This document shows, one piece after another, positions 6,682-51,402 of a stretch of 64,000 bases of DNA (positions are counted from its first letter, which is position 1; each line of letters opens with the position of its first letter). The position numbers and the translations under genes were made by a program. Location of the stretch: NCBI RefSeq assembly GCF_000364445.2, contig NZ_CP043538.1, forward strand, positions 5,041,447 to 5,105,446, read 5' to 3'. The stretch comes from Methylobacterium mesophilicum SR1.6/6. GTDB lineage: Bacteria; Pseudomonadota; Alphaproteobacteria; Rhizobiales; Beijerinckiaceae. The notes beneath the pieces are model-generated. The model ran no database searches. It was not told the origin of the DNA and saw nothing but the letters and a program-made list of their open reading frames with translations.

Positions 6682-6695
6682 CTCCGGACGCGCGC

Positions 6696-7726: not shown

Positions 7727-7730
7727 CGGA

Positions 7731-9731: not shown

Positions 9732-9806
9732 GGGATCGGCCCGTTCAGTGGGTTCGACGGCGACCGCCGGTCTTGTGTGTGGAGTCCGCTGCCATCGCGC
9801 GCGGCC

Positions 9807-11036
9807 TCATTGGTTCAGTTGCTTGGGGGCGATCTGGAAGCCCTCGCTCTGGCCTTCGCCGGAGCCCTTGCCCTGGCTGTCGGGCGACTTCTGCCCCCGG
9901 ACGTCCGGGTTGCCCATGTCGGGCCGCGGCTGCATGCCCTGGGGCTGCGTCTGGCCGTGCGGCAGGGTCTCCGAGGCCGGCGCCGTGGCGCCCGGCCCCT
10001 CGACGCCGCGCTCGGCGAGACGGTTGTCGTACCGAAGCCGCTTGTAGTTCGCCTGCGCCTCCTCGCCCGAGGCGCCGCCCTGGGCGTCGATCTTGGCCAT
10101 CTCGCCGACGCACATCTGGTCGGGACGGGGGCACATGCCGATGATCCGGTCGTAGAGACCCTGCATGTAGGACTTGTAGTAGCGCGCCGGCTCGGCCTCG
10201 CTCGGCTCCTCGAGCTTCAGGTAGGCCTCCTGGGTCAGCTCGCCACCCTCGGCCTTGGCCTTGGCGACCCACTGGTCGAACTTGTCGTTGGTCAGCCCGC
10301 GGAACTTGAAGAACATGTTGGAGAAGCCGGCGCCGCTGTAATGGGCCGAGCGTCCCTCGGAATCGCCCTCGCGGTTGATCACCGCGTGGAGCTGCGTCTG
10401 CATGCCGGGCATCGCGTAGACCATGCCGGCGAGCGTCGGCACGTAGAACGTGTTCATCACGTCGGTGGCGGTGATCTTGAAGCGGATCGGCCGGTCCACC
10501 GGCGCGGCGAGGTCGTTGACCGTGGCGATCCCGTATTGCGGGTAGAGGAACAGCCACTTCCAATCCATGGCGATGGCCTCGACCTCCAGCGGCACGGTGC
10601 CGGCGGGCACGTCGCGCTTCGTGTCGATCTTGCTGAGCGGCCGGAACGGGTCGAGGGTATGGGTGCCGATCCAGGTCAGCGCACCGAGCGCGATGATGAT
10701 CATCAGGGGCGCCGTCCAGATCAGCACCTCGAGCTGCGTCGAGTGGTGCCACTCGGGGTCGTAGACCGCGTCCTCGTTGGAGGCGCGGTAGCGCCACGCG
10801 AAGATCAGCGTGAAGGCGATGACCGGCACGATGATCAGGAGCATCAGCCCGGTGGCGGCCAGCACGAGGTTGCGCTGCTGCTCGGCCACGTAGCCGGCCG
10901 GCTGCAGGACCACGAAGTTGCAGCCTCCGAGCAGCGTCAGGAGGGGCAGGGTCAGGAGCGGCAGGAGGCGGCGCCCGCGGAAGCCCCGGGGTCGCAAGGC
11001 GTCGGTCCTGTCCGGTCGATGGGTCGAAGAGGTCAC
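9807..11036 (-). CDS. cyoA: Cytochrome o ubiquinol oxidase subunit II, lipoprotein
   Basis: 409-residue subunit II. The N-terminus has a signal with a lipobox (LLTLLGGC, Cys about 39), then two membrane helices (LVLAATGLMLLIIVPVIAFTLIF and LIWTAPLMIIIALGALTWIG) and the cupredoxin domain. CuA-ligand cysteines are absent (NTFYVPTLAGMVYAMPGMQT), as expected of a quinol oxidase. The protein is about 90 residues longer than E. coli CyoA; the extra C-terminal part is two Cys plus a Gln/Gly/Ser/Pro-rich tail. GTG start at 11036. It is the first gene of the operon. Confidence 0.95.
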   Translation of the reverse strand: MTSSTHRPDRTDALRPRGFRGRRLLPLLTLPLLTLLGGCNFVVLQPAGYVAEQQRNLVLAATGLMLLIIVPVIAFTLIFAWRYRASNEDAVYDPEWHHSTQLEVLIWTAPLMIIIALGALTWIGTHTLDPFRPLSKIDTKRDVPAGTVPLEVEAIAMDWKWLFLYPQYGIATVNDLAAPVDRPIRFKITATDVMNTFYVPTLAGMVYAMPGMQTQLHAVINREGDSEGRSAHYSGAGFSNMFFKFRGLTNDKFDQWVAKAKAEGGELTQEAYLKLEEPSEAEPARYYKSYMQGLYDRIIGMCPRPDQMCVGEMAKIDAQGGASGEEAQANYKRLRYDNRLAERGVEGPGATAPASETLPHGQTQPQGMQPRPDMGNPDVRGQKSPDSQGKGSGEGQSEGFQIAPKQLNQ

Positions 11037-11122
11037 AGCACGCGTCTCGTTATCCCATGCCGCTGACGCGGCGCTTCTGCCGTGCCGCGCGAAGCGGCTT
11101 TCCTGTCCGTCACGGGAGGGCG

Positions 11123-11140
11123 GCGCGGCCTTCGCCGCGC
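11123..11140. terminator. GC-rich hairpin between the MFS gene and cyoA
   Basis: A 7-bp stem (GCGCGGC / GCCGCGC) closes a CTTC loop about 10 bp downstream of the MFS stop. No T-run follows on the minus strand, so it is a weak terminator candidate or a partial attenuator ahead of cyoA rather than a classic intrinsic terminator. Confidence 0.3.
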
Positions 11141-11150
11141 GCCGCGTCCG

Positions 11151-12482
11151 TCACATCTGACGCAGTTCCGAGCGGTCGGTGAACAGGGCCACGAGGCTGC
11201 AGACCGCGCCGGACAGGAGGTAGACCCCGATCATCGCCAGGCCGTAGCGCTGGGACAGGAACAGCGCGACCAGCGGCGCGAAGCCGGCGCCGATCAGCCA
11301 CGCGAAGTCCGAGGTCAGCGCCGCGCCGGTGTAGCGGTAGCGGTTGCCGAGGCGGGCGCTCACCGCACCCGCGGTCTGGCCGTAGGCGAGGCCGAGCAGC
11401 ATGAAGCCGATCGTGACGTAGATGGTCTGGCCGATGGCGCTCTCGCCGAACAGGAGCGGCGCGATGATGCTGCCCACGGCGAAGAAGGCGATCAGCGACG
11501 CGCTCATGATCAGGCAGTTGCGGCGGCCGATCTGGTCGGCGATCAGCCCGGAGGCCGCCACCGCGCCGGCGCACACGATGGCGCCCGAGAACTGCACGAT
11601 CAGGAACTCCCCCGGCGAGCGGGTCGTGCTGTTCAGCGCGAGCCACGCGATCGGGAAGATCGTCACGAGGTGGAACAGCGCGAAGGCGGCGAGCGGCACG
11701 AAGGCGCCGCGGACCACGTCGCCCGCGTGGTGGCGGAACAGCTCCAGGGCCGGCACCGGGCGCAGACGGTCGAGGTCCATCATCCGGGCGAACTCGTCGG
11801 TGGCGACGAGGCGCAGCCGGGCGAACAGCGCGACCACGTTGATGGTGAAGGCGCAGTAGAACGGGAAGCGCCAGCCCCAGTCGATGAAGTCCGCCTCGTC
11901 GAGGTTGACGATGAAGAAGGCGAACAGGGCGCTCGCCACCATGAAGCCCAGCGGCGCGCCGAGCTGCGGGATCATCGCGTACCAGCCGCGCCGCTCCCGG
12001 GGCGCGTTCATGGCGAGCAGCGAGGCGAGCCCGTCCCAGGCGCCGCCCAGGGCGAAGCCCTGCAGCACCCGGAAGCCCGCGAGGATGTAGACGGCCGAGA
12101 TGCCGATGCTGTCGTAGCGCGGCAGGAAGCTGACGGCGGCCGTGGAGGCGCCGAGCAGGAACAGGGCGGTGGTGAGCTTGACGCTGCGTCCGTGACGGCG
12201 GTCGATCGCCATGAAGATCACGGTGCCGATCGGCCGGGCGATGAACGCGAGGGCGAAGATCGCGAAGGCGTAGAGCGTGCCCTTCAGCGGGTCGACGAAG
12301 GGGAAGAACACCTTCGGGAAGACCAGCACGCAGGCGATGCCGAACACGAAGAAGTCGAAATATTCCGAGGCGCGCCCGATGACCACGCCGATGGCGATCT
12401 CGTTCGGGTGGACCTTGTGGTCCCCCATCGCCTGCTGGGCGTCGCGTTCCAGCCCTGTGACCGTCGGGGTGTTCGCACTCAT
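11151..12482 (-). CDS. MFS transporter, metabolite:H+ symporter-like
   Basis: 443-residue, about 12-helix major facilitator of the MHS type. The loop 2-3 motif is seen in IARPIGTVIFMAIDRRHGRSVKL, and FRVLQGFALGGAWDGLASLL carries the helix-4 signature. A conserved-looking ASEYFDFFVFGIACVLVFPKVF N-terminal helix matches proline/betaine or dicarboxylate-type symporters. The substrate cannot be told. It lies directly upstream of cyoABCD on the same strand with 114 bp between, so it may be co-transcribed, although a hairpin lies in the gap. ATG start at 12482. Confidence 0.85.
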   Translation of the reverse strand: MSANTPTVTGLERDAQQAMGDHKVHPNEIAIGVVIGRASEYFDFFVFGIACVLVFPKVFFPFVDPLKGTLYAFAIFALAFIARPIGTVIFMAIDRRHGRSVKLTTALFLLGASTAAVSFLPRYDSIGISAVYILAGFRVLQGFALGGAWDGLASLLAMNAPRERRGWYAMIPQLGAPLGFMVASALFAFFIVNLDEADFIDWGWRFPFYCAFTINVVALFARLRLVATDEFARMMDLDRLRPVPALELFRHHAGDVVRGAFVPLAAFALFHLVTIFPIAWLALNSTTRSPGEFLIVQFSGAIVCAGAVAASGLIADQIGRRNCLIMSASLIAFFAVGSIIAPLLFGESAIGQTIYVTIGFMLLGLAYGQTAGAVSARLGNRYRYTGAALTSDFAWLIGAGFAPLVALFLSQRYGLAMIGVYLLSGAVCSLVALFTDRSELRQM

Positions 12483-24759: not shown

Positions 24760-26007
24760 ATGAGCTACATGGAGCGTCGCGTGCAGATTGACAGACGATC
24801 TTTGTTGGGCGCCGGTGCTGCCGCCCTCGCGGCCAACGCGATGCCGACGACGCCGGCTGAAGCCACGGCTGCGCGCATGCTGACGCTCACATCACCGATC
24901 AAGACGGGCTCGGCCACAGCAGAAGCGCAGGGCTGCGTGGCCTACCCGGACATTATCCTCACTGCCAGCAAGACGTTCGCCTTCGCCGGCACATACACCG
25001 GCACATTCAAGAACATCATGATTGCCGTGCCTGGCGTGTCGCCCTGGGTCAGCGTTGTGCAGGACGGCCAAGGCGGGTGGACCGCCACGATGGATCTCAG
25101 CAGCGTCCGCACCGGCCCGCTCAACTGCCGCATCATGGCGTGGTATGACGACCCAACCGAAAAAGGGCTTCGCCTCGATTTCACACTGTTGATCGATAAT
25201 CCGGCCATCCGGCGTGCGGCGCTGTCGGTTCCTGCTCCCGCGACCGGGATGAGGCAGCTTCTCGCGGACGACTTCGACACGCTCCCGGACGACAGCCGGT
25301 GGGCGTTTGGCGTGCGCCCTGACGGCAACCAGTGGGGATCGGGTTCGTACTTCATGACAAAAAACGAGAAGCTGAGCGATGTCTTCCAGCTTCCGATGCC
25401 GTCTTGCCTTCGCATTCGCGCCCTTTACGATGACGCCTACGTGGATCCACAGAGTTATGGGCGCAAATGGCGCTCCGGCCTGCTCTGCACCGCTTACGCA
25501 GATGGACGGCCGCCGATTGCTGCATTCCGCAAAGGCTACGTCGAGATGCGAGCCATTTTGCCGCTCGGCAAGGGTATGTGGCCAAGCATGTGGGCCGGTA
25601 GCCTAGGCACCGACGGCAAGGGAAACGAGCCGAACGGCCTCGAGATCGATGGTTTCGAGGCTTACGACGAGCAGGCTGACCCCGGTTCGTACACCATAGC
25701 CAATAACGTCATCCTCTGGATAGGAGACGGCAAGAATGATGGCGTTCCTCGGCAGATGTTCACAGCAAATTTTGACGCCACCTCAGATTGGCATACGTAC
25801 GGGGTGCTGGTCGAAGATGCACAGGCAACATTCTACATCGATGATAAAGTAACTTTCAAGATACCAATCCCAGAGAAAGGCAGCAAGACGCCTCTTTATT
25901 GGATGTTTGACAACGCTCTCTCCTCGGGTGATTGGCCCATAGTCGTTCCGCCCGCGAAACATGTTGATATGTGGGTTGATTACATTCGAATTTATTCTGC
26001 AGATTGA
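24760..26007 (+). CDS. Exported GH16-type glycoside hydrolase
   Basis: 415-residue protein. The N-terminus (DRRSLLGAGAAALAANA) looks like a Tat signal with a twin-Arg motif. Residues of about 40-155 form a beta-rich accessory domain; residues of about 165-415 are a GH16 jelly roll. The catalytic motif is E295-I-D297-G-F-E300, matching ExDxxE with nucleophile and acid/base. GH16 enzymes cut beta-1,3/1,4-glucans and galactans, and in exopolysaccharide loci (ExoK type) trim the polymer. GC is lower than in core genes. It is flanked by inverted IS5 copies and an IS110 relic, so it may have moved with them. Confidence 0.83.
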   Translation: MSYMERRVQIDRRSLLGAGAAALAANAMPTTPAEATAARMLTLTSPIKTGSATAEAQGCVAYPDIILTASKTFAFAGTYTGTFKNIMIAVPGVSPWVSVVQDGQGGWTATMDLSSVRTGPLNCRIMAWYDDPTEKGLRLDFTLLIDNPAIRRAALSVPAPATGMRQLLADDFDTLPDDSRWAFGVRPDGNQWGSGSYFMTKNEKLSDVFQLPMPSCLRIRALYDDAYVDPQSYGRKWRSGLLCTAYADGRPPIAAFRKGYVEMRAILPLGKGMWPSMWAGSLGTDGKGNEPNGLEIDGFEAYDEQADPGSYTIANNVILWIGDGKNDGVPRQMFTANFDATSDWHTYGVLVEDAQATFYIDDKVTFKIPIPEKGSKTPLYWMFDNALSSGDWPIVVPPAKHVDMWVDYIRIYSAD

Positions 26008-28167: not shown

Positions 28168-29805
28168 ATGTTCGGTCTCGTCGGGATGAGGCGGGGAGGA
28201 CCGCTATTGTCAGCGCTTCTACTCGGTGGCACAGTCCCCCTTGCGGCGGCCGTTCTCACAGCTGCAACCGGCACCGCGATGGCTTTCACCACCCTCGCTC
28301 TTTTGGGCATTGCCCTTTTCAATCTCGTCTTCTTTACAGCGCTTTTAACAGCCGGCGTGCACTTCCTTGGGCGGACTATCTTCCGCATACTTTACAGCTT
28401 ACTATGCCTTTTTTTGAGTCTCTACCTATTCGCTTACACATACCACTTCCTACTCTACGGACAGCTCATAGGCGATCCGTCGATCAGCGCGCTTCTCGAT
28501 ACCAATCCGCAGGAGGCCCTTGAATTTCTAAACTGGGCGACGGACTGGCGTCGTGTGCTTCTGGCCCTCCTGGCGGCGGTTCTCGCCGCACTTGCGCTCG
28601 CCCTAACGACGCCACGCTCAGTCCCGAGGCCGTCGCGGCGAATTGGGCTCGCTGCGGTTGCGCTTGCCGGCCTGATGCTGCCGGTCGGCGCTTGGCATCG
28701 CGGCATCTCGTATTTCAATCCGGGCTTCTTCCTGCCGCGCTCGGTTACCAACAACCTGCTCTACCGCGCCGCGGCCGAGCGCATGCAGGCCGCCCTTGAG
28801 AAGAATAGTGTCGGCGATGTCACCCGACCAATAGAGCGGGCGGCGACCCACATCCTCATCATCGGGGAATCCACCACGCGCCGCCACATGTCCCTCTATG
28901 GTTACGAGCGTGACACGACACCCAACCTGCGTCGGCTCGCGCCGGAACTCTATGTCGCTGAGGACGTCTGTTCGTCCCGCGGCCAGACGGTTCCGGCACT
29001 GCAGGAATTGCTCACCTTCGCATCTCGCGAGGATCTTGCGCCGCTCTTCGAGAAACCGAGTCTGCTCCAGATCCTGAAGGCCGCCGGTTTCCGCACGTGG
29101 TGGCTTTCGAACCAGCAACTCTACGGCAGATGGGACAACTGGTCTGCGATCCTGTCGGGACCGGCTGACACACGTGTCTTCGTGAACCGCGTCGGCTGGG
29201 GCGCGGGCGTCAGCCTCGACGAACAGCTTCTCGCTCCCCTCACAATGGCCCTCGCCGACCCAGCGCCCCTGAAATTCGTAATTGTTCACCTACTCGGCGC
29301 GCACGCCGAATACAGCCTCCGATATGCGCCAGCGTTTGCACGCTTTACCAACGTGTCGCTTCCTTCTACGCCACGGCGCCTACAGGGAATCGAAATCGAC
29401 CGCTACAACGCCTATGACAACGCCGTGCTCTACACGGATCATGTGGTCGCACAGATCATAGATGCCGCTCGCGAGACCGGCGAGAACGCAAGCGTCACCT
29501 TTCTCTCCGACCATGGCGAGGCGCTCGGCGAGGTCTCGGACTTCCACTCCCACATTGATGGCCCCGCCCCACGCCAAGTCTACGAGATTCCATTCACAAT
29601 GTGGATCTCGCCGGCGCTGCGCAACCGCCTCGGCGCCAAGGTTGAGGACCTTCGGGAGAATCTAACGCGGCCCTACCAGACGGACAGCGTCATCAATACC
29701 CTTCTTGACCTGTACGGCATCGACCATGCCGGCCGCGTCGCCGAAAGGAGCCTGTTCGCGCCCGCGTTACGGATCCCGGTCCGATACTGTGACACCCTGC
29801 CTTGA
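28168..29805 (+). CDS. EptA-like phosphoethanolamine transferase
   Basis: 545-residue inner-membrane alkaline-phosphatase-fold protein. Five hydrophobic helices lie within residues 1-175. The periplasmic catalytic domain starts with HILIIGESTTRRHMSLYGYE, where T236 is the expected nucleophile, and includes LLGAHAEYS and FLSDHGEALGE, which hold metal ligands. The family moves phosphoethanolamine from phosphatidylethanolamine to lipid A or other glycans. Spacing and the strong ribosome-binding site support the start. It lies within an island of polysaccharide genes and IS remnants, so the acceptor could be lipid A or a polysaccharide; the sequence does not decide. Confidence 0.88.
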   Translation: MFGLVGMRRGGPLLSALLLGGTVPLAAAVLTAATGTAMAFTTLALLGIALFNLVFFTALLTAGVHFLGRTIFRILYSLLCLFLSLYLFAYTYHFLLYGQLIGDPSISALLDTNPQEALEFLNWATDWRRVLLALLAAVLAALALALTTPRSVPRPSRRIGLAAVALAGLMLPVGAWHRGISYFNPGFFLPRSVTNNLLYRAAAERMQAALEKNSVGDVTRPIERAATHILIIGESTTRRHMSLYGYERDTTPNLRRLAPELYVAEDVCSSRGQTVPALQELLTFASREDLAPLFEKPSLLQILKAAGFRTWWLSNQQLYGRWDNWSAILSGPADTRVFVNRVGWGAGVSLDEQLLAPLTMALADPAPLKFVIVHLLGAHAEYSLRYAPAFARFTNVSLPSTPRRLQGIEIDRYNAYDNAVLYTDHVVAQIIDAARETGENASVTFLSDHGEALGEVSDFHSHIDGPAPRQVYEIPFTMWISPALRNRLGAKVEDLRENLTRPYQTDSVINTLLDLYGIDHAGRVAERSLFAPALRIPVRYCDTLP

Positions 29806-31178: not shown

Positions 31179-32300
31179 TCAGGTCGGTGAACCAGCAGCT
31201 CCAATCGCGACCTTAGGTAGCTCCACGCGCTTAGGTAGCAGCCGTGCGCGGAGTCCAAGGATAGGCTTCTCATAGAAGCGCCAGGAAATATGTGCGAGAG
31301 CAACGCTAATTGCAAAGCTGATTAAGGCACCAATGAACCAGCCCAAGATTGGATAGTTCGCAAGACCAATATAGCCTGGAATTGATCGGCTCGGTATGAA
31401 GTTATGAATGAGATAGAACCCGTAACTGATAACCCCAAAATATTCAAGCGGCGGCCACTCAAGTAACCGGACCGCTAAACTTTCTTGATTACAACGTATC
31501 CATGCAACAAGCAATGCTAGCGCAATGCTGACTGTGAAAGTTGAAAATCCGCCAATGGGATCGGGCACACGGGCGGCAAGCCAACTCGCGCTGTAAGTTG
31601 CGATGATGGTCATCGCGATGAGGAGCGGAAGTGGCCTGCGTAAGGGCGCGCGGTATCGCTCCGCGCGCATGAGAATGCCAGCCGCTCCTCCCAATGCGAT
31701 CAGCGCGAAATTCCAAGGACTTGTCAGGTAGATATCCCGCGCTGACACGCCGTGATGTTGCATCAATAAGTGCCCTGCTGCGGCAACGACCACCACGCAA
31801 ATACAGATGCGTGCATGCCAGACCGCCGGGCACAGCACGAAGGCGAGCGGGGCAAGCACATAGAACTGCTGTTCGACCGACAGCGTCCATAGGACTCCGA
31901 AAGGACTGCCTAAATTGGGACTGACGAACGCTGAGAAATAGTTCGACAAATAGACCGCGTGCCAAACAAAATCGAGGCCATTTCCCATAGGGTCATATAG
32001 CCTTCGTACAAGAAAGAGGAGAGCCAGCAATCCATAGTAGGCTGGAAAGATACGTAGCGCTCGCTTAGTGGCGAAGATGCGCAGTGCCGTGCCGACCCCG
32101 TAACGAGCGGCCTCCACATCAAGGCGCGCCCCATGCAACTCGCCAATGATGAGGAATCCTGAAATTACTAAGAAAGTCCATACCCCCAAGGGCGCGGCAT
32201 AAAACTCAAGATTGCACTTGTGCGATAGGAATACGGCTATTACGCACAAAGCGCGTAGCCCGTTAAAGCCAAGTATTCTAAATTTAGTCGACTCTGCCAT
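31179..32300 (-). CDS. Acyltransferase family 3 membrane protein
   Basis: 373-residue polytopic protein with about ten hydrophobic helices. The N-terminus (FNGLRALCVIAVFLSHK) carries the family's RxxAxxxVxxxH-like motif, and GVLWTLSVEQQFYVLAPL is the conserved SVE motif. Such proteins O-acetylate or O-succinylate sugars of exopolysaccharide, O-antigen or peptidoglycan across the inner membrane. GC is clearly lower than the core genes. It is in the same strand as the second GH16 gene, 257 bp downstream of it. Confidence 0.88.
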   Translation of the reverse strand: MAESTKFRILGFNGLRALCVIAVFLSHKCNLEFYAAPLGVWTFLVISGFLIIGELHGARLDVEAARYGVGTALRIFATKRALRIFPAYYGLLALLFLVRRLYDPMGNGLDFVWHAVYLSNYFSAFVSPNLGSPFGVLWTLSVEQQFYVLAPLAFVLCPAVWHARICICVVVVAAAGHLLMQHHGVSARDIYLTSPWNFALIALGGAAGILMRAERYRAPLRRPLPLLIAMTIIATYSASWLAARVPDPIGGFSTFTVSIALALLVAWIRCNQESLAVRLLEWPPLEYFGVISYGFYLIHNFIPSRSIPGYIGLANYPILGWFIGALISFAISVALAHISWRFYEKPILGLRARLLPKRVELPKVAIGAAGSPT

Positions 32301-32557: not shown

Positions 32558-33442
32558 TCATTCCTTGCAGATCAGATCGCGCTTAGGCAAATCGGGCGCA
32601 TAGGCATGAACATAATCAACAAGCAAATCTGAAGGATTCCGCGTTTTGTCGATAGGCCAACCTGATCCGAGGGCAAGATTGACAAGCATCATCAGTGGCT
32701 TCGTGTGCTCGTGCGGAGTTGGCTTTCTGCCGATCTCGCGCCGATCTAAATAGAATATGATCCATTCCTTTGTCACTTCGACGCCATAGGTGTGAAAAGT
32801 CTCGCTCAAACTACCGCTTGGCACCTTAGTGGTAATTGCTTCGCCTCGATTTTCTTCGGGATTGATCTTATTCCAAACATGCAGAACAGAATTGAAGGCA
32901 TCCGGAATGTGTCCATAATACTCTATGACATCGATCTCGACGCTCGGAGTCTTGTCGTCCTTCCGTGAATTGGATGCAAGCCAGAACGCCGGCCAAACTC
33001 CTGGACCGGGAGGCAACTTCATACGTGCCTCGAAGTAACCGTATGTCTGTGCGAAACCGGCCGTCGTCGGGTCAGCGGAAGACAGCAAACCCGACGTCCA
33101 CTTGCCGTTCTCGTGCTTCCTGGCTCTAATAGTCAATATGCCATTTTTCACAAAGAACGGCACGTTCCTTTCGGGGTCTGAGTAAAAGTCTATAGGATCC
33201 AGAAACTTTGCGTCGCCGAAATCGCCATTCCAGGGGGTGTGTGCAGACCACCGCGCTCGTTCGTTGTTGGACTTAGATACGCTTAAATCATTAAAATCGT
33301 CACCCCAGACTTTTTTGTAACGGCAAATCTGCAGTGATCCGTCCCCTGCCTGAAGCTGATTACACGCTGCAAGGACAGAAACGACGCTCAGCACTGAGGC
33401 CGGGGACATCATCAGGATCGCTTTTCGGAAACGCGATTTCAT
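32558..33442 (-). CDS. GH16 glycoside hydrolase, probable lipoprotein
   Basis: 294-residue GH16 protein. The N-terminus (FRKAILMMSPASVLSVVSVL) ends in LAAC, a lipobox with Cys27, so it may be a lipoprotein. The catalytic motif is E169-I-D171-V-I-E174, with GVWPAFWLASN before it and YLDRREIGR after, all typical of the family and intact. ExoK/ExsH-like enzymes in this family shorten nascent exopolysaccharide. It is second GH16 in the island but differs clearly in length and export signal from the one at 24.8 kb. Confidence 0.88.
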   Translation of the reverse strand: MKSRFRKAILMMSPASVLSVVSVLAACNQLQAGDGSLQICRYKKVWGDDFNDLSVSKSNNERARWSAHTPWNGDFGDAKFLDPIDFYSDPERNVPFFVKNGILTIRARKHENGKWTSGLLSSADPTTAGFAQTYGYFEARMKLPPGPGVWPAFWLASNSRKDDKTPSVEIDVIEYYGHIPDAFNSVLHVWNKINPEENRGEAITTKVPSGSLSETFHTYGVEVTKEWIIFYLDRREIGRKPTPHEHTKPLMMLVNLALGSGWPIDKTRNPSDLLVDYVHAYAPDLPKRDLICKE

Positions 33443-39241: not shown

Positions 39242-40675
39242 TCATCTAAAAACTGCGACGAGAGATTTAATATTATATCCTGCAATTAGAAGGGCAAGCA
39301 AATATGCCATTGCACCGACAGAAACGACAACCGCAGTGGTGACATATATATTGACAAAGACACCGGCGATAGTTCCCCCTAATAGACCAACCGCACAATA
39401 CATCGCGGCTCCGGCCATCAATGGTATTGCGCATTGTCGCAGCTGTGTAAACGGACTCAGCCCAATCATCGATTTTAAGCAATACATCGTTATTATCATC
39501 AATATAAATGAACACAGCAGCCGTGATAATATGACTCCCTCGGCACCGAACTGCCAGGCGCCGATCGCAATCACTGGCAATTTCAGCATAAATTCGACGA
39601 AAGACAGATTGAATAAAATCTTTGTCTTTCCAAGTGCAGCAGCAAGCGCTGGAAATGGCTGAGTCAATAAGTAAAAAATGGGCTCAATCGCGATTATCTG
39701 CAAGAACGGCACCACGGAGAGCCATTTTTCTCCGAGAAGTGCTCGAACTAGGGGGTCTGCTGCAACGCTAAGGCCAAAAAATATGGGGACCCCGACCATC
39801 GAAACTGCTCGCAAGCATCGTTCGTATTGTTGAGTGAGTATCGGTCGATTGCCAGTCGATTTTGCGAACGTTGACATCATCGGTGTTACTGTTGGCAAGA
39901 TCAGACTCTGCGCCGGCAGCGCCGCGATGTCATTGGCCATAGTATATCTGCCAAACTGCGCGTGATCTACAAATTTACCTAGCAATAGTCTATCATACTG
40001 CCAATTGAATGCGGCAAATGCCTTCGATAGGCTCAGCCAGCCGGAGAATGAAAGAAAATATTTGTACTGCAGAAAAGTTAATCTTGGCCAGCACGGGGCG
40101 ATAATATATGACAGGCTTGAGGATGCCGCTGGAGCTACAACAGTATTTACGACAATCGACCAAACTCCCGCGCCCATATATGCGCAGGTGATGGCAGCTA
40201 TGCTACCTATAGCTTTCCCAAACGTTTCGATAACGAATGTCGGTCTAAAATCCAAATTCTTTACCGTTAAAGCGATGCCAGGACTTGTCATGCCTCGCGC
40301 GACCGAACACAAACTTAGTGCTAATACTAAATCATGCAATTGAGGCATTCCGTAGATTGCGGCGAACGGCACGGACAGCGCAGCAGTTACAGACGCTATC
40401 AAAAAACTTCTTGCTAGATTAATTGTAAAGGCAGTGTCTAGATGTGATTTAGAAATGTTAGGCATGCAAATGAGGGCAGCACCAACTGGGAAATCGGTAA
40501 TCATATCGATTATCGATATCAACGTCATCGCAATCGCAACGATGCCGAATTCACTGGGTCCGAGCGTTCTTGCGAGAACAAGTAACGTGATAAAATCGAT
40601 TCCCTTTCCAATTATCTTTGAAGAAATTGTTAACAGGGCACCGTTAAGCGCTCGTTTGGAACTCATTAGAAACAT
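39242..40675 (-). CDS. Wzx-type polysaccharide flippase (MOP superfamily)
   Basis: 477-residue protein with about 12-14 hydrophobic helices. The N-terminus (ALNGALLTISSKIIGKGIDF then ITLLVLARTLGPSEFGIVA) is typical of the oligosaccharide flippase family, and QYDRLLLGKFVDHAQFGRYT fits the middle of it. It would flip lipid-linked repeat units to the periplasm in Wzx/Wzy-type assembly. No wzy polymerase is seen in the window. GC is low (well below the flanking core). Two ATGs at the start (40675, 40666). Confidence 0.87.
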   Translation of the reverse strand: MFLMSSKRALNGALLTISSKIIGKGIDFITLLVLARTLGPSEFGIVAIAMTLISIIDMITDFPVGAALICMPNISKSHLDTAFTINLARSFLIASVTAALSVPFAAIYGMPQLHDLVLALSLCSVARGMTSPGIALTVKNLDFRPTFVIETFGKAIGSIAAITCAYMGAGVWSIVVNTVVAPAASSSLSYIIAPCWPRLTFLQYKYFLSFSGWLSLSKAFAAFNWQYDRLLLGKFVDHAQFGRYTMANDIAALPAQSLILPTVTPMMSTFAKSTGNRPILTQQYERCLRAVSMVGVPIFFGLSVAADPLVRALLGEKWLSVVPFLQIIAIEPIFYLLTQPFPALAAALGKTKILFNLSFVEFMLKLPVIAIGAWQFGAEGVILSRLLCSFILMIITMYCLKSMIGLSPFTQLRQCAIPLMAGAAMYCAVGLLGGTIAGVFVNIYVTTAVVVSVGAMAYLLALLIAGYNIKSLVAVFR

Positions 40676-42091: not shown

Positions 42092-43141
42092 TCACAGAGC
42101 TGATTTGTAGACCTCAATCGTTTCGGCGCAAACACGCGAGATGGTTAAATATTGTATCTGGTTCTGGCTTTGGATTTTCCAGAACGCCAGTTGTTGCGGA
42201 TCGTCCAGTAACCGCAACATCTCACGTGCAAGGGCGTCTGGCCTTCGCGCGGGCACAAGAATACCGGCCTTTCCATCGTTCAACAGCTGCGGAATTCCAT
42301 CGACGTCGGTCGCGATCACTGCACAACCCGCCTCTCTTGCTTCGGAGATCACGAGCGGTGCAGGGTCCGCATGGGAGGGCAGAACGAAGATATCCGCCGC
42401 GGCCAAATAGGAAACTGGCTGCTGGATTGTCCCAAGGAACTCGACCGAATTTGCGCTGGACAGATCGGAAACATATTTAGTGTATGTGTCGATCATAGGG
42501 CCGCCCCCGACAATATATAATTTGCAATTCGGCCTGGATCGATAGACAATTTCGAAGGCATCGAATAGATCAATCAAGCCTTTTCTAGGATGAAGTCCTC
42601 CTACGAACATGACATTGGGCTTTGAAAGAGAGACTTGCTTGCGATCCACACTTTTCAATCGGGCGGAACCAATTGTGCCGTTCAGCACGACCGCAAGCTT
42701 CTTTTCCTTAATGCCTCGCCTAGACATCGACTTTTTCACGGCCTCGCTAACTGCGATGACCTTCTTGCCAAGCCCCATCAAGATGGAGCTTCGTTCGAAC
42801 TCGTTGTGTACAGTTGTAATTAAAGGAATGCCAAGCATCATGCAGGATGGCCACGCCAGGACTGCACTGGTCATCATATGCGCATGCACAATATCGGGGC
42901 GATCCTTTCGCAACAACCGATAAAACGCCAGCATCTCAGATGGAACGAGATGTATCTTTCGCCGATGAGCGAGGTATCTCGTTCCAACTTTGTTGTCCTG
43001 CAGCAAATCGTCAAAGTCACCGCCGGCGCTAGCGATGAGAACAGCATGATCTAGTCGCGCCTGCTCGCATGCCAGGTCGACCGCAGCATGGACATGCCCA
43101 TTTGATTTCTTTGTATGGTTAAGAATATGGATGATTTTCAT
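42092..43141 (-). CDS. Family 4 glycosyltransferase (GT-B)
   Basis: 349-residue GT4 protein. It begins MKIIHILNHTKKSNGHVHAA as GT-B enzymes of this group do, and has VMFVGGLHPRKGLIDLFDAF and the donor-site ADIFVLPSHADPAPLVISEA, with conserved acidic residues at E in ISEAREAG. The enzyme would use a nucleotide sugar to extend a lipid-linked oligosaccharide. GC is moderately low. Its neighbours are IS5 copy C and a 620-bp gap; no partner overlaps. Confidence 0.9.
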   Translation of the reverse strand: MKIIHILNHTKKSNGHVHAAVDLACEQARLDHAVLIASAGGDFDDLLQDNKVGTRYLAHRRKIHLVPSEMLAFYRLLRKDRPDIVHAHMMTSAVLAWPSCMMLGIPLITTVHNEFERSSILMGLGKKVIAVSEAVKKSMSRRGIKEKKLAVVLNGTIGSARLKSVDRKQVSLSKPNVMFVGGLHPRKGLIDLFDAFEIVYRSRPNCKLYIVGGGPMIDTYTKYVSDLSSANSVEFLGTIQQPVSYLAAADIFVLPSHADPAPLVISEAREAGCAVIATDVDGIPQLLNDGKAGILVPARRPDALAREMLRLLDDPQQLAFWKIQSQNQIQYLTISRVCAETIEVYKSAL

Positions 43142-43764: not shown

Positions 43765-46431
43765 CTAACGAGGTTTCGCGCCTTGCTGTGGTAACGCTTC
43801 GCAAGCCGCCTCAACGCGCAAGAGGCGCAGTGCCTCGGCATGCGCCCAGGCCATGCCGAATGGCGGAGACCAGCCAGCTGCGGCAATCTTGTTCGCGGGG
43901 AAGCGCATACGCCACAGCGGGTTGCGCAATGGCAGGCGGCGGAAACGCGCAAAGTCGCGAACCCAATCGACCGCAGGCGGCACGGGCGGTACCTTAAAGC
44001 GTAAGTCGCCGGTCGCATCATACGCCTTAAGCATAAAATCGGCGTGCGTCGGCGTCGCGAAATGGTCCTCGCCTACATTGAAGGTCTCGAAGCTCCCGGC
44101 AGGGCCAACGCCGGAGAGCCCCCGCTCCATCGCCCACAGGATCGCATCTGAGACGTCGCCCACGTAGACGTGGTGCGCGTGACGGTGGGCCGCAATGACG
44201 CGTTTCGAACGGGGCCAATCACGGATTTCAATGAGTTCTGGGAGACCCACGACTACCGTCGGGCGCAGCGCCACGTAGCGGGTCAGACGTGCCTCGGCGG
44301 CCAACGCAAGCTCGCCAGCGAGTTTCGTGCGGCCGTAGGCTCGGGTCTGGTCGATGGCCCAGTACTCGTTGGGCACGTCTCGATCGGCAGTCAGCACGGG
44401 GGCGTCCTCAGACATGATGCGACCGCGGCCACTGCCATAAACGGCGACTGAGCTGGTGTAGACGAAGGTGCGCACCTGAGCCCGCTCGCCCGCTGCGGCG
44501 AGCAGCCGAGTCGCCTCGACATTGGCCTGCGGCATGCGAGCAGGGTCGTGCATCTCGGCAGCAATGTGGAGGATTGCATCACAGCCCTCGACCAGAGCAT
44601 CGTAGCCATCTTGGCGCAAAAGGTCGAAATGCCGCCATTCGAGCCCCGGCGCACGTGAGTCTAAGGGTAGGGACTTGGACGTCGTCGCTCGCACCCGGTA
44701 ACCCCGCGCAGCGAGGTCGGCTAATACAACTCGGCCGATGCGCCCGGTGGCACCGGTGAGCAAGACCCGTATTGGGTTCTGTTCGCCGGCCGGCGAAGTG
44801 CAAATGGCGGGCGGGCGGGCAGACCGGACACGGGCCTTGAGGCCGTCGGCCAAGCGCAGAGAGGTTGCCACGATCATCTGCGTTGGATTGGCGTGGCCGG
44901 CCGTGGGAAAGGTCGAGGAGCCGGCGACGTAGAGCCCGTCGACCCCGTGGACCTGATGATCTGCGTCCACCACGCCCATGGTCGGATCGTCCGCCATCCG
45001 CGTTGCCCCGGTCGGGTGGCCGACGTCGGTGATCGAGTCCGGGAAAGGTGCTTGGTGCCGCACCCAAGGTTCGAGTTCAGGAACCGGAAGTCCCATCGCC
45101 GCGAAGCTGTCGCGGGCGACTTCGGCCATGCGGCGCATGGAACGCTCTTCGTCCGGATGTACACGCCAGTCGATGCGGGGCAGCCGCGAGCCGAAACGGT
45201 CGCGCCGGTCCGACAAAGTAATCCGGCTATCAGGATCCGGCCGTTGCTCGCACATCGCGTCAAGCGTCAGGGACGAGAGCTTGCGGGGAAAGCCGTTTGC
45301 CTGAACGAAATACTGATGTAAACCACGCACCAGCAGGCCTGGACTGGCCGCTAGCACGCCGACGTCTTCGCTCAACTTGGCGCGTCCCGAGGCGATGCGC
45401 TTAAGCGCCTCAAGGGGGTCGCCCGGTGCGACTTCCTCTCCGAGCCAGGCCGCGACGTTGAGCAATCCTTCCTCGCGCTGCAATTGCGGGCTCAACCGCA
45501 GGCCGGCCCGGAACAGGTTGCCGCGCACGGTGAAGCGCCCGAAGCGGCGCTCAACCTCTCTCGAGCTCTCGACCGGGAAGGACGCGATTGAGCCGCGGGG
45601 ATGGTCCATGAGATAGCGGCCGACGAGGTCGCGGTCGTTGCCCAGGCCGCCTTTGACCACGCTATCTGATGAGAGGAGCAGGCGTGGGTTTTCGATGCCA
45701 CCCGCACACAACACAACGGTGCGGGCCGGTATCGTGAACCGTTGTCCGTCAGGCGCGGCAACAATAACCGAGGAAACGGCCTTACCGGATTCGACCGGAT
45801 CGATCCGGATCACGGTGGCGTTTGTCAGCAACGTGAAGTTGGGGCCAAGCCGATCGTCAATACGCGGTCCAAACCGCATGTACTCGAACCGGTAGGCATG
45901 CTCGCCGTCGCGACTGAATTGCCAAAAAAACGGCAGCAATAGCCGTGGGTCGGGTGCGGCCGGCGCTTGGCGATTGGCAAGCCTCCAGAAGCGGTCGTCA
46001 CTGAAGCCCTCGCCGGAGACCAGCCCGAGGTATTCGGCGCTGCGCTCAAGAAAAGGAACGAGGATTTCGCGCCTGAAGGGCCAGCCGGAAGCTGGCACCC
46101 AAGGGCGGTGCTCGAAGTCGATTTCGTCGAAGGCGGCGCAGCGGCCGCCCCAAGTGTGCGAACTACCGCCGATAATTCGATTGCGTACGTGCCACTGGTC
46201 ATCGACTGAGAGGCGTGCGCGTCCGATGTTCTCGACTTCGTCGAGCGCGTCTGCATCGGACTGCCGCTCGTGACTGCCGCTCTCCAGCATCGTCACACGC
46301 AGGCCGCTCCGTGTGAGTTCACGGGCGATGGTGCTACCGGCAGGACCAGAGCCCACGATGCACACGTCGCTGCCTTCGACAGCTGCGGTCGCTTGGCCGC
46401 CGGCGGTGCGCAGATCGATGATCCTCATCAT
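43765..46431 (-). CDS. GMC oxidoreductase fused to an NAD-dependent epimerase/dehydratase
   Basis: 888-residue fusion. Residues of about 20-540 form a GMC flavoprotein: DVCIVGSGPAGSTIARELTR (GxGxxG 27-32), GGSSHTWGGRC in the FAD region, and HPTGATRMADDPTMGVV and AGHANPTQMIVATSLRLADG at the end with a candidate catalytic His/Asn pair. Residues of about 554-880 form an extended SDR: VLLTGATGRIGRVVLADLAA, TSSVAVYGSG and YGRTKLAGE (Y698, K702). Both halves look complete. I would expect it to oxidise a sugar or polyol and then epimerise or reduce it. A GGAGG ribosome-binding site precedes it. Its GC is higher than that of neighbouring GT genes. Confidence 0.85.
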   Translation of the reverse strand: MMRIIDLRTAGGQATAAVEGSDVCIVGSGPAGSTIARELTRSGLRVTMLESGSHERQSDADALDEVENIGRARLSVDDQWHVRNRIIGGSSHTWGGRCAAFDEIDFEHRPWVPASGWPFRREILVPFLERSAEYLGLVSGEGFSDDRFWRLANRQAPAAPDPRLLLPFFWQFSRDGEHAYRFEYMRFGPRIDDRLGPNFTLLTNATVIRIDPVESGKAVSSVIVAAPDGQRFTIPARTVVLCAGGIENPRLLLSSDSVVKGGLGNDRDLVGRYLMDHPRGSIASFPVESSREVERRFGRFTVRGNLFRAGLRLSPQLQREEGLLNVAAWLGEEVAPGDPLEALKRIASGRAKLSEDVGVLAASPGLLVRGLHQYFVQANGFPRKLSSLTLDAMCEQRPDPDSRITLSDRRDRFGSRLPRIDWRVHPDEERSMRRMAEVARDSFAAMGLPVPELEPWVRHQAPFPDSITDVGHPTGATRMADDPTMGVVDADHQVHGVDGLYVAGSSTFPTAGHANPTQMIVATSLRLADGLKARVRSARPPAICTSPAGEQNPIRVLLTGATGRIGRVVLADLAARGYRVRATTSKSLPLDSRAPGLEWRHFDLLRQDGYDALVEGCDAILHIAAEMHDPARMPQANVEATRLLAAAGERAQVRTFVYTSSVAVYGSGRGRIMSEDAPVLTADRDVPNEYWAIDQTRAYGRTKLAGELALAAEARLTRYVALRPTVVVGLPELIEIRDWPRSKRVIAAHRHAHHVYVGDVSDAILWAMERGLSGVGPAGSFETFNVGEDHFATPTHADFMLKAYDATGDLRFKVPPVPPAVDWVRDFARFRRLPLRNPLWRMRFPANKIAAAGWSPPFGMAWAHAEALRLLRVEAACEALPQQGAKPR

Positions 46432-47277: not shown

Positions 47278-48303
47278 CTAAGATATAATTCTCTTCGCCC
47301 GGCGAATTATTGAGCGCAGATAGGGATAAGCCATAGGATTGATGCGGGCATTGATTATCGATCGCGCCATTTTGTTCGGCAATGTCCAAAGGCTTGTGAT
47401 GAACAGTAGGATTGGTATGAACTGAATAGGACTGACCTCTTGCTTCGCCCGCTTCAAAATTCCCGTAACTTGGCTGAATGAGATTGATTTTTGATCCAAC
47501 ACATCGGCCATGAATTCTCTTTGAAGAGTATAAAGATAGCGAGAATGTATTTCAGTCTCCGATCCGTCTAGATTGTGATGGTTCAACAAGCTTGCGAGGT
47601 GCCTCAATCTTTTCTCAAAGACATGAGCATCACGTCTTAACCGCTGGGCATTCACTGAACCAGCGCCAGAGAGATTGGTACCATGCAATCGATACTGCCC
47701 AAGAGCCGTGTTGATTGAAATGACTTGCCCCCTGTAAGGCGCCAGCAAATAGGCGACCCCATCGATACCGAAATCGTAACTGATATCACCAAGCCCTTCA
47801 TACAACGACCTCCTCCAAATATTCCCGGAGGTTGGCGGTATGACATAATAACCCCTGCGCTGAATGTCGCGTCTGAATTGATCACTTCCTTCAGAGTCAT
47901 TCAAGGATGGGAAAGATAGCCCGATGATTTTTCCGTCAGGCCCTATTGGATCGAGAGCAAATTGAACTTTAGAAACTTCATCCGTCAAATACTGAGATAT
48001 GCTTGAAACAGCGTGAGGATACAGCACATCATCCGCATCAAGAAACATCAGAAATTCGCCAGATGACTTTGAGACTCCGTACAGACAGGCCGGTATTGAG
48101 CCACGATTTTCTGTTCGAAAGGAGTTCAATTTATTGCCGTAGGAGCTGATAACCTCCCACGAATTGTCGATTGAACCATCATCTACGACTATGATTTCGA
48201 AACTCACGCCGTTTTGAGCCAGCGCGCTGTTTATTGCGGTCGCTACATATTTTCCATAATTAAAACAGGTAATTATGATGCTGATTTTTGGCTGGGTATC
48301 CAT
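47278..48303 (-). CDS. Family 2 glycosyltransferase
   Basis: 341-residue GT2 protein. It begins KISIIITCFNYGKYVATAIN, then IIVVDDGSIDNSW and GEFLMFLDADDVLYPHAV, which hold the conserved Asp of the GT-A fold and the DxD site. The C-terminal 100 residues have a hydrophobic segment (PIQFIPILLFITSLWTL) that may touch the membrane. AT-rich. Likely adds a sugar to the repeat unit made in this island. ATG at 48303. Confidence 0.88.
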   Translation of the reverse strand: MDTQPKISIIITCFNYGKYVATAINSALAQNGVSFEIIVVDDGSIDNSWEVISSYGNKLNSFRTENRGSIPACLYGVSKSSGEFLMFLDADDVLYPHAVSSISQYLTDEVSKVQFALDPIGPDGKIIGLSFPSLNDSEGSDQFRRDIQRRGYYVIPPTSGNIWRRSLYEGLGDISYDFGIDGVAYLLAPYRGQVISINTALGQYRLHGTNLSGAGSVNAQRLRRDAHVFEKRLRHLASLLNHHNLDGSETEIHSRYLYTLQREFMADVLDQKSISFSQVTGILKRAKQEVSPIQFIPILLFITSLWTLPNKMARSIINARINPMAYPYLRSIIRRAKRIIS

Positions 48304-48864
48304 CCTTAGGCCTCTGGAATGCTGCTTATGAGAGGATGAAAAATTGGCTGGAGATGATCGTCGATATAATTATCACTTTGTTAACAAGCCATAATGAATT
48401 GCCCATCTCATTCTTGATTCAAAATTCTGCGGAAGCGTTGCCAGTCGACCTGACACGGTCATGAAGTGTGCGTATCGACATCCGCCTTCCAGAACCTTCT
48501 GTGCAGGAATGTGGCCTGGAACGGTTTGCCTGCGCGAGTGACAAGGACCATTGTCCCAGCATGGTCGGTTCGACGCATGAAGCTCCGCCCGGTCGAGACG
48601 AGCACTCATTGCTTGCAGCAGAGCTCGGATGGTTGACCGTGGGCGTGCATTCCAAACGCGCGAGGGGACGATATTCGTCATATTGCCGATCCGGGCCGGA
48701 ACGATGTCGTCGATGAGGCGTGGCTGCACGTCGCCATCGTCGCGCTGGAAAGTTCCCATAACCCGGCGTCCACGCCGTTCCCTTGAGTGCTTGGTCTCGG
48801 AAGTGGGGTGACGGATCGAGCCCGAAGCGCTCGGTTTCTCGTCGAGGTCCGAACGATAAGCTCT
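48304..48864. other. Stretch upstream of the GT2 gene, no gene recognised
   Basis: About 560 bp. The left 100 bp are AT-rich and should hold the GT2 promoter. The remainder is GC-rich with open minus-strand frames (for example ARPRSTIRALLQAMSARLDR) that I cannot place; it may be debris next to the IS481 remnant. Confidence 0.35.
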
Positions 48865-49610
48865 TAGGTTGTGAGGCCAAGCAGAGTCTCGAGCGGACGG
48901 ACGTGGTCGTAGGCGTCGACGAACACCTGAAAGCGGTCCCGGAGTTGTTCGTGCGTGTCGTTGCGGGAGCGCTTGACCGCCGCGTCCTCGATGGTGCGGC
49001 TCATTCACTCGACCCGACCGGTGGTCCACGGATGGTTGGACTGAGTCAAGCGCCGCTCGATGCCGTGGTCGTGGCAGATGCGATCGAGCATAAGCCGGCC
49101 GTACCAGACGATCGGACTTGAGCGATTGCCCGCGGCAGGGCGGAATTGCACTCCGTTGTCGGTCAGGGTTCGCTTGAGCGTCCAGCTTGGCGAGAGCCGG
49201 CTTCGAAGTGCCGTCGATGGCCACGAACAGGCGGACTTTGCCTTGCTCAATCCAGGCCTTTTCGATGTCGATGTGGACGCAGCCAATGCCAACATCGGCC
49301 AAGCGCTCATTCCGGCGCTTGGCGCCTTCCATCTTCGGCAGGCGGCTGATGCCGTGCCGGGTCCCGGGCCGCGGCGGAGTGACGAGCGGGCCAGATGCGG
49401 GAACGTGGGCTTCAGACCGTAGAGGCCGTCGTCCGGCGGCGGCAGTGTGTGGCGCCGGGCGCCGACGATAACCGCCACCTCCGCTGGAGCGAGGACGGGC
49501 GAGCGCGGCTTCTTCGGCCCCATGGCAGCGTCTGCCGTCGACCGCCGTGCGCCTTGTCTGGATCGACTTCGGGCCATGTGTCACCTGAAAGCCCCAGCGC
49601 CTTATATTCG
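48865..49610 (-). pseudogene. IS481-family transposase remnant
   Basis: Minus-strand pieces match IS481: DDGLYGLKPTFPHLARSSL, HGISRLPKMEGAKRR, VHIDIEKAWIEQGKVRLFVA then IDGTSKPALAKL, TLTDNGVQF, CHDHGIERRLTQSNHPWTTG then RVE, and QVFVDAYDHVRPLETLLGLT. The frames shift several times and part of the rve domain is missing. This remnant closes the island on its right side. Confidence 0.8.
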
Positions 49611-49764
49611 GTTGCCATCTGCACTGCTGACCCGAGCCAGATCGCAGCTTTTGCGCTAAGCCTAACCGTGGGGCGGGCTTGATCGGATACCAGCGTAACG
49701 CCGTACCTTGGCCGTTCTCGTCTCGGGAATCCGGATTGAAAGAGACCGCAAGGGCTTGTTTATC

Positions 49765-51402
49765 GTGACACTGCGTCCACAAGCGGGTTGCCTGAAGTTC
49801 CGCTCCGTCGGAATGGTCTCCGCGCTCGCGCTCTTGGCAGCGACACCGTCCGCTGCGGAGACCTTAGAGAGCGCGCTCGCGAAGGCCTACCAGGGGAATC
49901 CGACGCTCAACGCGAGCCGTGCGGGCGTTCGGGCGACCGATGAGAACGTGGCGATCGCGCAATCCGGATACCGGCCTCAGGTCAACGTCGGTGCGTCCAT
50001 CGGTGTCCAGTACCTCCAGACCCGCAGCGCGAGCGCTCTCACGGCCGCGAGTTCGACCGGCACGGGCGCGACAGCGACGGGTGCCGGCAGCGCTCTGGGT
50101 ACGAGTGCGAGCACCGGCGCGGGTCTCGGTACGTCGACGGGTATCGGAACCACCTCGGGCACGACCGGCACGGGGACGGCCGGCTCGTTCACCACGGGCG
50201 GCACCGGTCAGACGGCCTCCGCCGTCGGGGGTTCTGTCGGAGGCTCGACCGACATCGCGACGCAGACGATCGGATCGAGCCGGACGATCCGGACGACCTA
50301 TCTGCCGAGCAGCGCGAATCTGACGGTCTCGCAGACCATCTTCAACGGATTCCAGACCGACAACCTGACCCGGCGCGCCGAATCGACCGTCTACAGCCAG
50401 CGCGAGACGCTCCGCTATACGGAGCTCACGGTCCTCTACAACGCCGTCCAGGCGTACATGAACGTGCTCAGCAACACCGCGACGCTGGAGCTGAACCGCA
50501 ACAACGTCGAGGTGCTGGAAGAGCAGCTCCGGCAGACGCGCGACCGGTTCAACGTCGGCGAGGTGACCCGGACCGACGTGGCCCAGGCGGAGGCGCGCCT
50601 CGCCGGTGCCCGCTCGCAGGTCAGCGCGGCCGAATCAGCCCTGCGCACCAGCATCGGCATCTATCGGCAGAATATCGGCGTCGAGCCGCGCCAGCTCGCG
50701 CCGGGCCGGCCGCTGGATCGGTTCGTGCCGGGGAGCCTCGACGCGGCCATCGCCGTCGGCCTGCGCGAGCATCCGCAGATCGTGTCGGCCATCCACGCCG
50801 TCGATGCCGCCGAATCGCAGGTCAAGGTGCTGGAAGGCCAGCTCGCCCCGAGCCTCAGCCTTCAGGGCTCGCTCAGCCAGCTCTACGATCAGAACGGCCC
50901 GAACACGAGCTTCTTCGTCGGCTTCGTCGGCGGCCGGCTCAACATCCCGATCTACGAGGGCGGCCAGACCTACGCGCAGATCCGCCAGGCCAAGGAGACG
51001 GTCGGCCAGACGCGGATCCAGGTCGATCAGGTCCGCGATCAGGTCCGGGCGCAGATCGTCGATTTCTGGGGCCGGCTGGAGGCCGCGAAGGCGCAGGTCA
51101 TCGCCGCCCAGGCTCAGGTCCAGGCCAACGAGGTGGCGCTGAACGGCGTGCGCGAGGAGGCCCGCGTCGGCCAGCGCACCACCCTCGACGTCCTGAACGC
51201 ACAGCAGGAATTGCTGAACTCGCGGGTGAACCTGATCCTCGCCCAGCGCGACCGGGTGATCTTCTCCTACGGGGTGGTGCAGGCGATCGGACAGCTGACG
51301 GCGCGCTTCACGGCACTGCCGGTGGAATACTACAGCGCGAAGGTCCACTACGATCAGGTCAAGGACCTGTGGTTCGGCCTGCGCACGCCGGACGGACGCT
51401 GA
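49765..51402 (+). CDS. tolC: TolC-family outer-membrane channel
   Basis: 545-residue TolC-type protein for type I secretion or multidrug efflux. A signal peptide (SVGMVSALALLAATPSAAET) precedes two OEP repeats; typical strings are ETLESALAKAYQGNPTLNAS, RDRFNVGEVTRTDVAQAEAR and VRAQIVDFWGRLEAAKAQV, which are the coiled-coil helices. A Gly/Thr/Ser-rich insert of about 80 residues (roughly 90-170) sits in the first repeat, before TYLPSSANLTVSQTIFNGFQ. GTG 49765 chosen; ATG 49813 and a TTG 49708 are alternatives. It lies just outside the IS-rich region, alone on its strand before popZ. Confidence 0.9.
   Translation: MTLRPQAGCLKFRSVGMVSALALLAATPSAAETLESALAKAYQGNPTLNASRAGVRATDENVAIAQSGYRPQVNVGASIGVQYLQTRSASALTAASSTGTGATATGAGSALGTSASTGAGLGTSTGIGTTSGTTGTGTAGSFTTGGTGQTASAVGGSVGGSTDIATQTIGSSRTIRTTYLPSSANLTVSQTIFNGFQTDNLTRRAESTVYSQRETLRYTELTVLYNAVQAYMNVLSNTATLELNRNNVEVLEEQLRQTRDRFNVGEVTRTDVAQAEARLAGARSQVSAAESALRTSIGIYRQNIGVEPRQLAPGRPLDRFVPGSLDAAIAVGLREHPQIVSAIHAVDAAESQVKVLEGQLAPSLSLQGSLSQLYDQNGPNTSFFVGFVGGRLNIPIYEGGQTYAQIRQAKETVGQTRIQVDQVRDQVRAQIVDFWGRLEAAKAQVIAAQAQVQANEVALNGVREEARVGQRTTLDVLNAQQELLNSRVNLILAQRDRVIFSYGVVQAIGQLTARFTALPVEYYSAKVHYDQVKDLWFGLRTPDGR

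Follow-up and report, generated by a model that had tools for sequence, protein, structure and literature searches.

A GMC oxidoreductase–SDR fusion in a Methylobacterium polysaccharide island as a candidate two-step sugar epimerase

A 64,000-nucleotide stretch of the Methylobacterium mesophilicum SR1.6/6 genome (NZ_CP043538.1, positions 5,041,447 to 5,105,446; hereafter the window) encodes a single chain in which a flavin adenine dinucleotide (FAD)-type GMC oxidoreductase is joined to an extended short-chain dehydrogenase/reductase (SDR). The fusion represents an existing, unnamed protein family whose setting, in alphaproteobacteria and one actinobacterium, is polysaccharide synthesis. We propose, at about an even chance of being right, that it is a two-step sugar epimerase in one chain, coupling FAD oxidation to NADPH ketone reduction. 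The logic would be that of the mycobacterial decaprenylphosphoryl-ribose 2'-epimerase DprE1/DprE2, a pairing of an FAD enzyme (DprE1) and an SDR (DprE2), but with enzymes drawn from other families. The GMC half (FAD, His472 and Asn515) would oxidise one secondary hydroxyl of a carrier- or glycan-attached sugar to a keto-sugar, and the tethered SDR half (Ser660/Tyr699/Lys703) would reduce the ketone with NADPH from the opposite face to give the epimer, which neighbouring glycosyltransferases would build into an exported polysaccharide. We infer the sugar substrate, the shared keto intermediate and the stereochemical inversion.

The 888-residue GMC–SDR chain described in the initial annotation is real: one minus-strand open reading frame (ORF) runs without internal stops, and Pfam domains are found in both halves. 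These are GMC_oxred_N (PF00732) at residues 193–278 (5e-6; 27.0 bits against a gathering score of 23), GMC_oxred_C (PF05199) at 398–522 (4e-24; 86.2 bits against 24.6) and Epimerase (PF01370) at 556–776 (7e-24; 85 bits against 20.9). A GGAGG motif precedes the first and second ATG codons by 1 and 4 nt, respectively, and the database copy of the protein (P0002) has 887 residues, so that Met2 is probably the true start. A protein search with the fusion returned 664 proteins at E ≤ 0.001. Among the best 120 of these, 115 were at least 820 residues long, the query's database copy included; the other 114 covered 92–100% of the query at 43–63% identity. The initial annotation had held that a stop or frameshift near codon 545, or homologues that are always separate genes, would make the fusion an artefact. 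An assembly artefact or frameshift is ruled out by the stop-free frame and these 114 other full-length relatives.

An alignment was made of the query and the 114 relatives (115 rows, none shorter than 820 residues), dropping the database copy and five shorter proteins (P0058, P0103, P0117, P0119 and P0120). Both halves look functional, because their active-site residues are invariant or nearly so across the 115 fusions (Table 1), including the SDR serine, Ser660 (115/115). This bears out the earlier statement that cofactor motifs and catalytic residues are kept in both halves; the SDR motif it gave as Y698/K702 is present, with its numbering one too low (Y699/K703). The first half shows the marks of the GMC superfamily (PF05199 and PF00732 above gathering score, GxGxxG, His472 and Asn515) and the second those of extended SDRs (PF01370 above gathering score, TGxxGxxG, Ser and YxxxK). 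In NAD+-retaining GalE-type epimerases the second strand ends with an acidic residue, as in the VLDD of epimerase 6wjb; the query has none there. Within residues 580–586, Asp or Glu occurs in 3 of the 115 rows, and residue 586 is Lys or Arg in 98. Judged by this signature the pocket is NADP-type, not NAD-type, and fits an NADPH reductase. GalE-type epimerases also carry an RD-x-[VIL]-[YHF]-V-x-D motif with a nucleotide-binding Arg. The motif RD[FYWLV][VIL][YHF]VxD is found in none of the 115 rows, though Arg750, two residues upstream and present in 112, might stand in.

Structure prediction of the fusion gave a mean pLDDT of 89.5 and a pTM of 0.67. The domain arrangement is not fixed, because of this pTM and the disordered linker (residues 542–550), and the channelled keto intermediate of the initial annotation is not supported by these data, which give no sign for or against it. 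The matches listed by a fold search with the whole model were all to GMC proteins, and the SDR half was therefore folded separately. Matches to the GMC half span residues of about 14–540, and its closest solved relatives are enzymes that oxidise sugars or glycosides, namely FAD glucose dehydrogenase, which is the best match, fructose dehydrogenase, and pyranose and C-glycoside oxidases. In fold score, choline oxidases come close behind. Also among the relatives is PDB 7dve, an entry titled C-glycoside oxidase with 6'''-hydroxyparomomycin C oxidase as its chain name. The fold of the SDR half is common to many nucleotide-sugar epimerases and dehydratases, and it matches epimerases and NADPH ketone reductases better than it does uronate dehydrogenase (3rft, 3rfx), a weak match (3e-6). 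None of the best 25 of 34 NCBIfam models matched reached its cut-off. The top match of the SDR half, HpnA (TIGR03466, 'hopanoid-associated sugar epimerase'), scored 69 bits against 367.65, galE 34.4 against 262.3, and the pyranose oxidase model TIGR02462 61.7 against 544.9. At E ≤ 0.01 the N-terminal half matched GMC and general FAD/NAD-binding Rossmann families and no DprE1-type (VAO/ALO) family. We consider it improbable that the chain performs a double oxidation, in which the SDR half, as a dehydrogenase, would take the aldehyde- or lactone-level product of the GMC half on to uronic-acid-like polymer residues. The glucose dehydrogenase and uronate dehydrogenase matches would suit this scheme, but the NADP-type signature and the better matches of the SDR half argue against it.

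The occurrence of the fusion is patchy. Named sources among the matches listed were Methylobacterium, Phenylobacterium, Paracoccus, Blastococcus, Modestobacter, Friedmanniella, Pseudonocardia, Quadrisphaera and a Polyangiales metagenome-assembled genome, which we take to represent alphaproteobacteria, actinobacteria and at least one further group. Within the genus, 7 of 111 genomes hold a fusion (threshold 1e-30; the window's own included), six near-full-length at 57–100% identity and one distant (970 residues, L050). SDR-like matches near the GMC genes of four genus loci (L022, L025, L026 and L029) are convergent with them and so were not counted as pairs. Across the family, 14 of 248 genomes gave any match at E ≤ 1e-60. 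Besides the window's own genome these comprised one near-full-length fusion (G162), one split pair (G275), one fusion of a GMC protein to a Gfo/Idh/MocA oxidoreductase (G313) and ten genomes with a GMC match alone within the stretch fetched. At class level the window's own genome was the sole match of 337 at 1e-100.

The two halves are fused in Paracoccus liaowanqingii and are separate, overlapping genes on three annotated rhizobial plasmids, with overlaps of 11 bp in R. binae and R. etli and 20 bp in R. tumorigenes. At least 80% of the query was covered in 12 of 31 plasmid records, a figure that counts fused and split genes together, the annotation being mostly unusable. An adjacent pair also occurs in G857, where the GMC frame has 546 residues and the SDR match follows 40 bp on in another frame. 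In the GMC-half tree (51 of 206 rows in its better version) three rhizobial split pairs are nested among seven fused rows in a clade of 10 (support 100/98), which points to fission of the fusion gene in the rhizobial clade; the distant split pair of G275 falls outside. That homologues are always two genes is thus ruled out, full-length fusions being common and the rhizobial splits lying inside their clade. With the R. etli SDR as query, 148 proteins were obtained at 1e-30, the best 120 being mostly free-standing SDRs and mostly rhizobial where named. Many of these are on short contigs and may be cut pieces, and at least five of those listed retain a GMC domain.

Two different reductase families are used as GMC partners; we make no claim as to the number of recruitment events. 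In G313 (L055) a similar GMC protein carries the Gfo/Idh/MocA oxidoreductase in place of the SDR, at the same position. A search with this protein found 249 proteins, with the best 120 listed. From the first 53 of these, 50 of at least 860 residues were aligned, the query's own copy included, and three shorter ones dropped. The GMC His and Asn are retained in all 50, and the precomputed PF01408 domain is absent in one (P0153). The core of the Gfo half (numbered as in P0122) is similarly constant, with E675, P677 and H739 in 50/50 and T676 in 49/50, giving E-T-P where the Gfo/Idh/MocA family usually has E-K-P. A plasmid search with the GMC–Gfo protein gave no match at 1e-100. A double recruitment of Gfo/Idh/MocA, suggested by a first FastTree tree, was dropped, as the better tree allows one recruitment with later losses. 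A further SDR subtype is fused to GMC in P0198, P0201 and P0206 (27–34% identity to the SDR half of the query over part of the length, YxxxK kept). Two divergent GMC and SDR gene pairs lie side by side in a polysaccharide cluster of G763 (L066, L068); one of their SDRs is 60% identical to that of G275 and the other has P0206 as its nearest relative (28% over 281 residues). In L068 (G763:C1:1430000-1448000), these pairs of differing SDR subtype occupy 6198–12017, next to genes for a flippase and for a polysaccharide pyruvyl transferase.

A kept GMC oxidase with exchangeable reductases (Gfo/Idh/MocA, the divergent SDR subtype) is what a shared keto intermediate predicts, because the second half need only reduce the product of the first. 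The oxidation and stereo-inverting reduction suggested by the initial annotation gain indirect support from the second reductase family, the NADP-type pocket and the likeness of the GMC half to sugar oxidisers, this last tempered by the nearly equal scores of choline oxidases. There is also precedent for a GMC enzyme and a Gfo/Idh/MocA enzyme both acting at C3 of glycosides (PMC10646112, PMC11239390). Weighing against a coupled epimerase, six related single GMC genes have no partner of the three fused kinds, although one of the six (L010) is followed 394 bp downstream by an ordinary epimerase gene (PF01370), and one GMC–Gfo locus (L067) has genes for DNA polymerase I, a transporter and a TonB receptor around it.

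In a tentative alternative, the halves would serve the same pathway and share no keto intermediate. The GMC half could, for example, turn a primary hydroxyl into an aldehyde in the manner of aminoglycoside oxidases, the SDR half would separately make or reduce a nucleotide sugar, and fusion would do no more than equalise their amounts. The epimerase gene near L010, the presence of 7dve among the GMC relatives and an SDR fold common to many nucleotide-sugar enzymes are in keeping with this. We nevertheless regard it as rather unlikely, given the NADP-type pocket, the scores of galE, rmlD and the other nucleotide-sugar models listed, which are far below their cut-offs, and the missing GalE-type motif (Arg750 again being a possible substitute); the second, Gfo/Idh/MocA-bearing fusion family likewise favours coupled chemistry. 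As to the form of the sugar in the proposed epimerisation, the neighbours of P0122 encode a GT2–GtrA protein (PF00535 and PF04138), resembling polyprenyl-phosphate glycosyltransferases, and a membrane protein with no Pfam match. This is a hint of a lipid-linked substrate from one locus; at L067, none of the four neighbours scanned is of this kind. The data do not support a choice between the nucleotide-linked and lipid-linked substrates that the initial annotation had named. On two Rhizobium plasmids (NZ_CP063398 and NZ_CP032691; L062, L063) a related GMC gene (42–46%) lies beside genes for a large nonribosomal peptide synthetase/polyketide synthase, a condensation-domain protein, a phosphopantetheinyl transferase and a DegT aminotransferase, a set that perhaps performs oxidation followed by amination.

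Gene context was covered in 25 stretches, two of them holding the GMC–Gfo fusion; in 23, genes were called by ORF and codon-position composition and clustered by BLAST. All 13 long main-clade loci (the window, L009, L045–L049, L051, L056–L059 and L061; a non-random sample in which L056 and L057 are near-copies) contain at least two polysaccharide-assembly gene families that each recur in at least two other stretches. Among the GMC-only loci (L010, L011, L052, L054, L060, L062 and L063), just L063 does so. The families recurring across the 23 stretches were a Wzz/GNVR chain-length protein (11), a HAD-like hydrolase and a double GT4–GT2 glycosyltransferase (9 each), GH16 (8), two GT4 families and an initiating sugar transferase (7 each), a flippase, GT2, an export protein and a Wzy-like protein (6 each, the last by a weak Pfam match below cut-off) and ManC (5). 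Members of the shared GT4, GT2, flippase and GH16 families lie in the window, in line with the polysaccharide island and the glycosyltransferase neighbours of the initial annotation. The window has no initiating sugar transferase or export protein; each is found at four places elsewhere in the genome. There, identical-scoring export-protein and sugar-transferase pairs (G000:C1:4286976/5424525 and 487620/1308497) suggest duplicated polysaccharide genes.

The recurrent context also bears on whether the substrate is a polymer sugar at all. It could instead be a polyol, a lipid or a hopanoid-type alcohol, with the polysaccharide genes mere neighbours, as the HpnA match, the fold likeness to choline oxidases and the position of L067 outside polysaccharide genes might suggest. 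Set against the families common to all 13 loci and the patchy occurrence in the genus, this has little probability.

Table 1. Features of the fusion gene and of the surrounding island (positions in the window; row counts refer to the 115-protein alignment unless stated)
Feature	Position	Strand	Remark
GMC oxidoreductase–SDR fusion ORF	43765..46431	minus	ATG to stop, 888 codons; probably 887 residues from second ATG at 46428
GMC flavoprotein half, residues 1–541	44809..46431	minus	Pfam; fold matches over about 14–540
FAD-binding GxGxxG, G27–G32	46336..46353	minus	G27, G29, G32 each 111/115 (4 gapped)
GMC catalytic His472	45016..45018	minus	115/115; 206/206 rows of fused, split and single GMCs
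GMC catalytic partner Asn515	44887..44889	minus	114/115; role by analogy with PsG3Ox H440/N484
Linker, residues 542–550	44782..44808	minus	pLDDT under 50
Extended SDR half, residues 555–888	43768..44769	minus	Pfam Epimerase; fold
SDR nucleotide-binding TGATGRIG, 559–566	44734..44757	minus	T559, G560, G563, G566 each 115/115
End of second strand, VRATTSK, 580–586	44674..44694	minus	NADP-type, acidic residue absent
SDR YxxxK, Y699 and K703	44323..44337	minus	each 115/115
GT4 glycosyltransferase, next downstream of fusion	42092..43141	minus	relatives (43–58%) at 6 other family loci
GT2 glycosyltransferase, upstream of fusion	47278..48303	minus	relatives at 5 other loci
MOP/Wzx-type flippase	39242..40675	minus	relatives at 5 other loci
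GH16 glycan hydrolase	32558..33442	minus	relatives at 7 other loci
Acyltransferase (PF01757) of island	31179..32300	minus	acyltransferases also near relatives L056–L059, L009
Second GH16 protein	24760..26007	plus	same island
EptA-like sulfatase-family protein (phosphoethanolamine transferase type)	28168..29805	plus	same island
469-residue ORF	48373..49782	minus	no Pfam match; overlaps outer-membrane efflux protein start at 49708; probably not a gene

The fusion is already in databases under automatic names; as a kind it varies the existing idea of an epimerase built from an FAD oxidase and an NAD(P)H reductase by drawing on other families. Searches of open-licence full text aimed at the fusion or its setting listed no paper on it, judged by titles and abstract openings. 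The fusion may be a little-studied means of flipping sugar stereochemistry. If the proposal is correct, it is a second FAD-plus-NADPH bacterial route to rare sugars, present across at least two phyla, and polysaccharide clusters annotated 'GMC oxidoreductase' and 'epimerase' gain a testable function. A fused oxidase with a swappable reductase would also be a ready tool for the enzymatic making of epimers. More speculatively, GMC–reductase pairs might be glycan epimerases of a general, modular type with an evolutionary origin separate from that of DprE1/DprE2. One conserved FAD oxidase module would be combined with exchangeable NADPH reductases (two SDR subtypes or Gfo/Idh/MocA) and act on carrier-linked sugars, so that rare epimers would arise once the sugar has been activated and not earlier; this broader generalisation we hold to be doubtful.

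Among known systems, we know of no pyranose oxidase or C-glycoside 3-oxidase with a fused reductase. The bacterial enzymes of this type, PsG3Ox and DaCGO1, are about 20–23% identical to the GMC half, which falls far short of the pyranose oxidase model; the role of PsG3Ox is C-glycoside breakdown, according to PMC10646112. The entry titles describe fructose dehydrogenase as membrane-bound and glucose dehydrogenase as a complex of gamma and alpha subunits, whereas the fusion shows no transmembrane segment in a hydropathy scan and has an SDR partner. With other extended SDRs (dihydroflavonol and cinnamoyl-CoA reductases; GalE/HpnA-type epimerases) the SDR half has the fold, TGxxGxxG and YxxxK in common, and it lies below the cut-off of every model among the NCBIfam matches listed. 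Its NADP-type strand-2 end resembles that of the NADPH ketone reductases, dihydroflavonol reductase among them. The unnamed GMC–Gfo/Idh/MocA fusions (P0122 and relatives) have a related GMC half and an NAD(P) oxidoreductase at the same place, but one of another family, with its conserved E-T-P. DprE1 belongs to the VAO/ALO-type flavoproteins and DprE2 to the classical SDRs, whereas the fusion has a GMC protein as its FAD half and an extended SDR (PF01370), both in one chain. The shared feature would be the chemistry, for which DprE1/DprE2 provide the precedent: an oxidase and a reductase act in turn on one sugar, via a keto intermediate, for a cell-envelope glycan (PMC10307805). If the fusion works likewise, DprE1/DprE2 chemistry is a recurrent solution and not a mycobacterial oddity.
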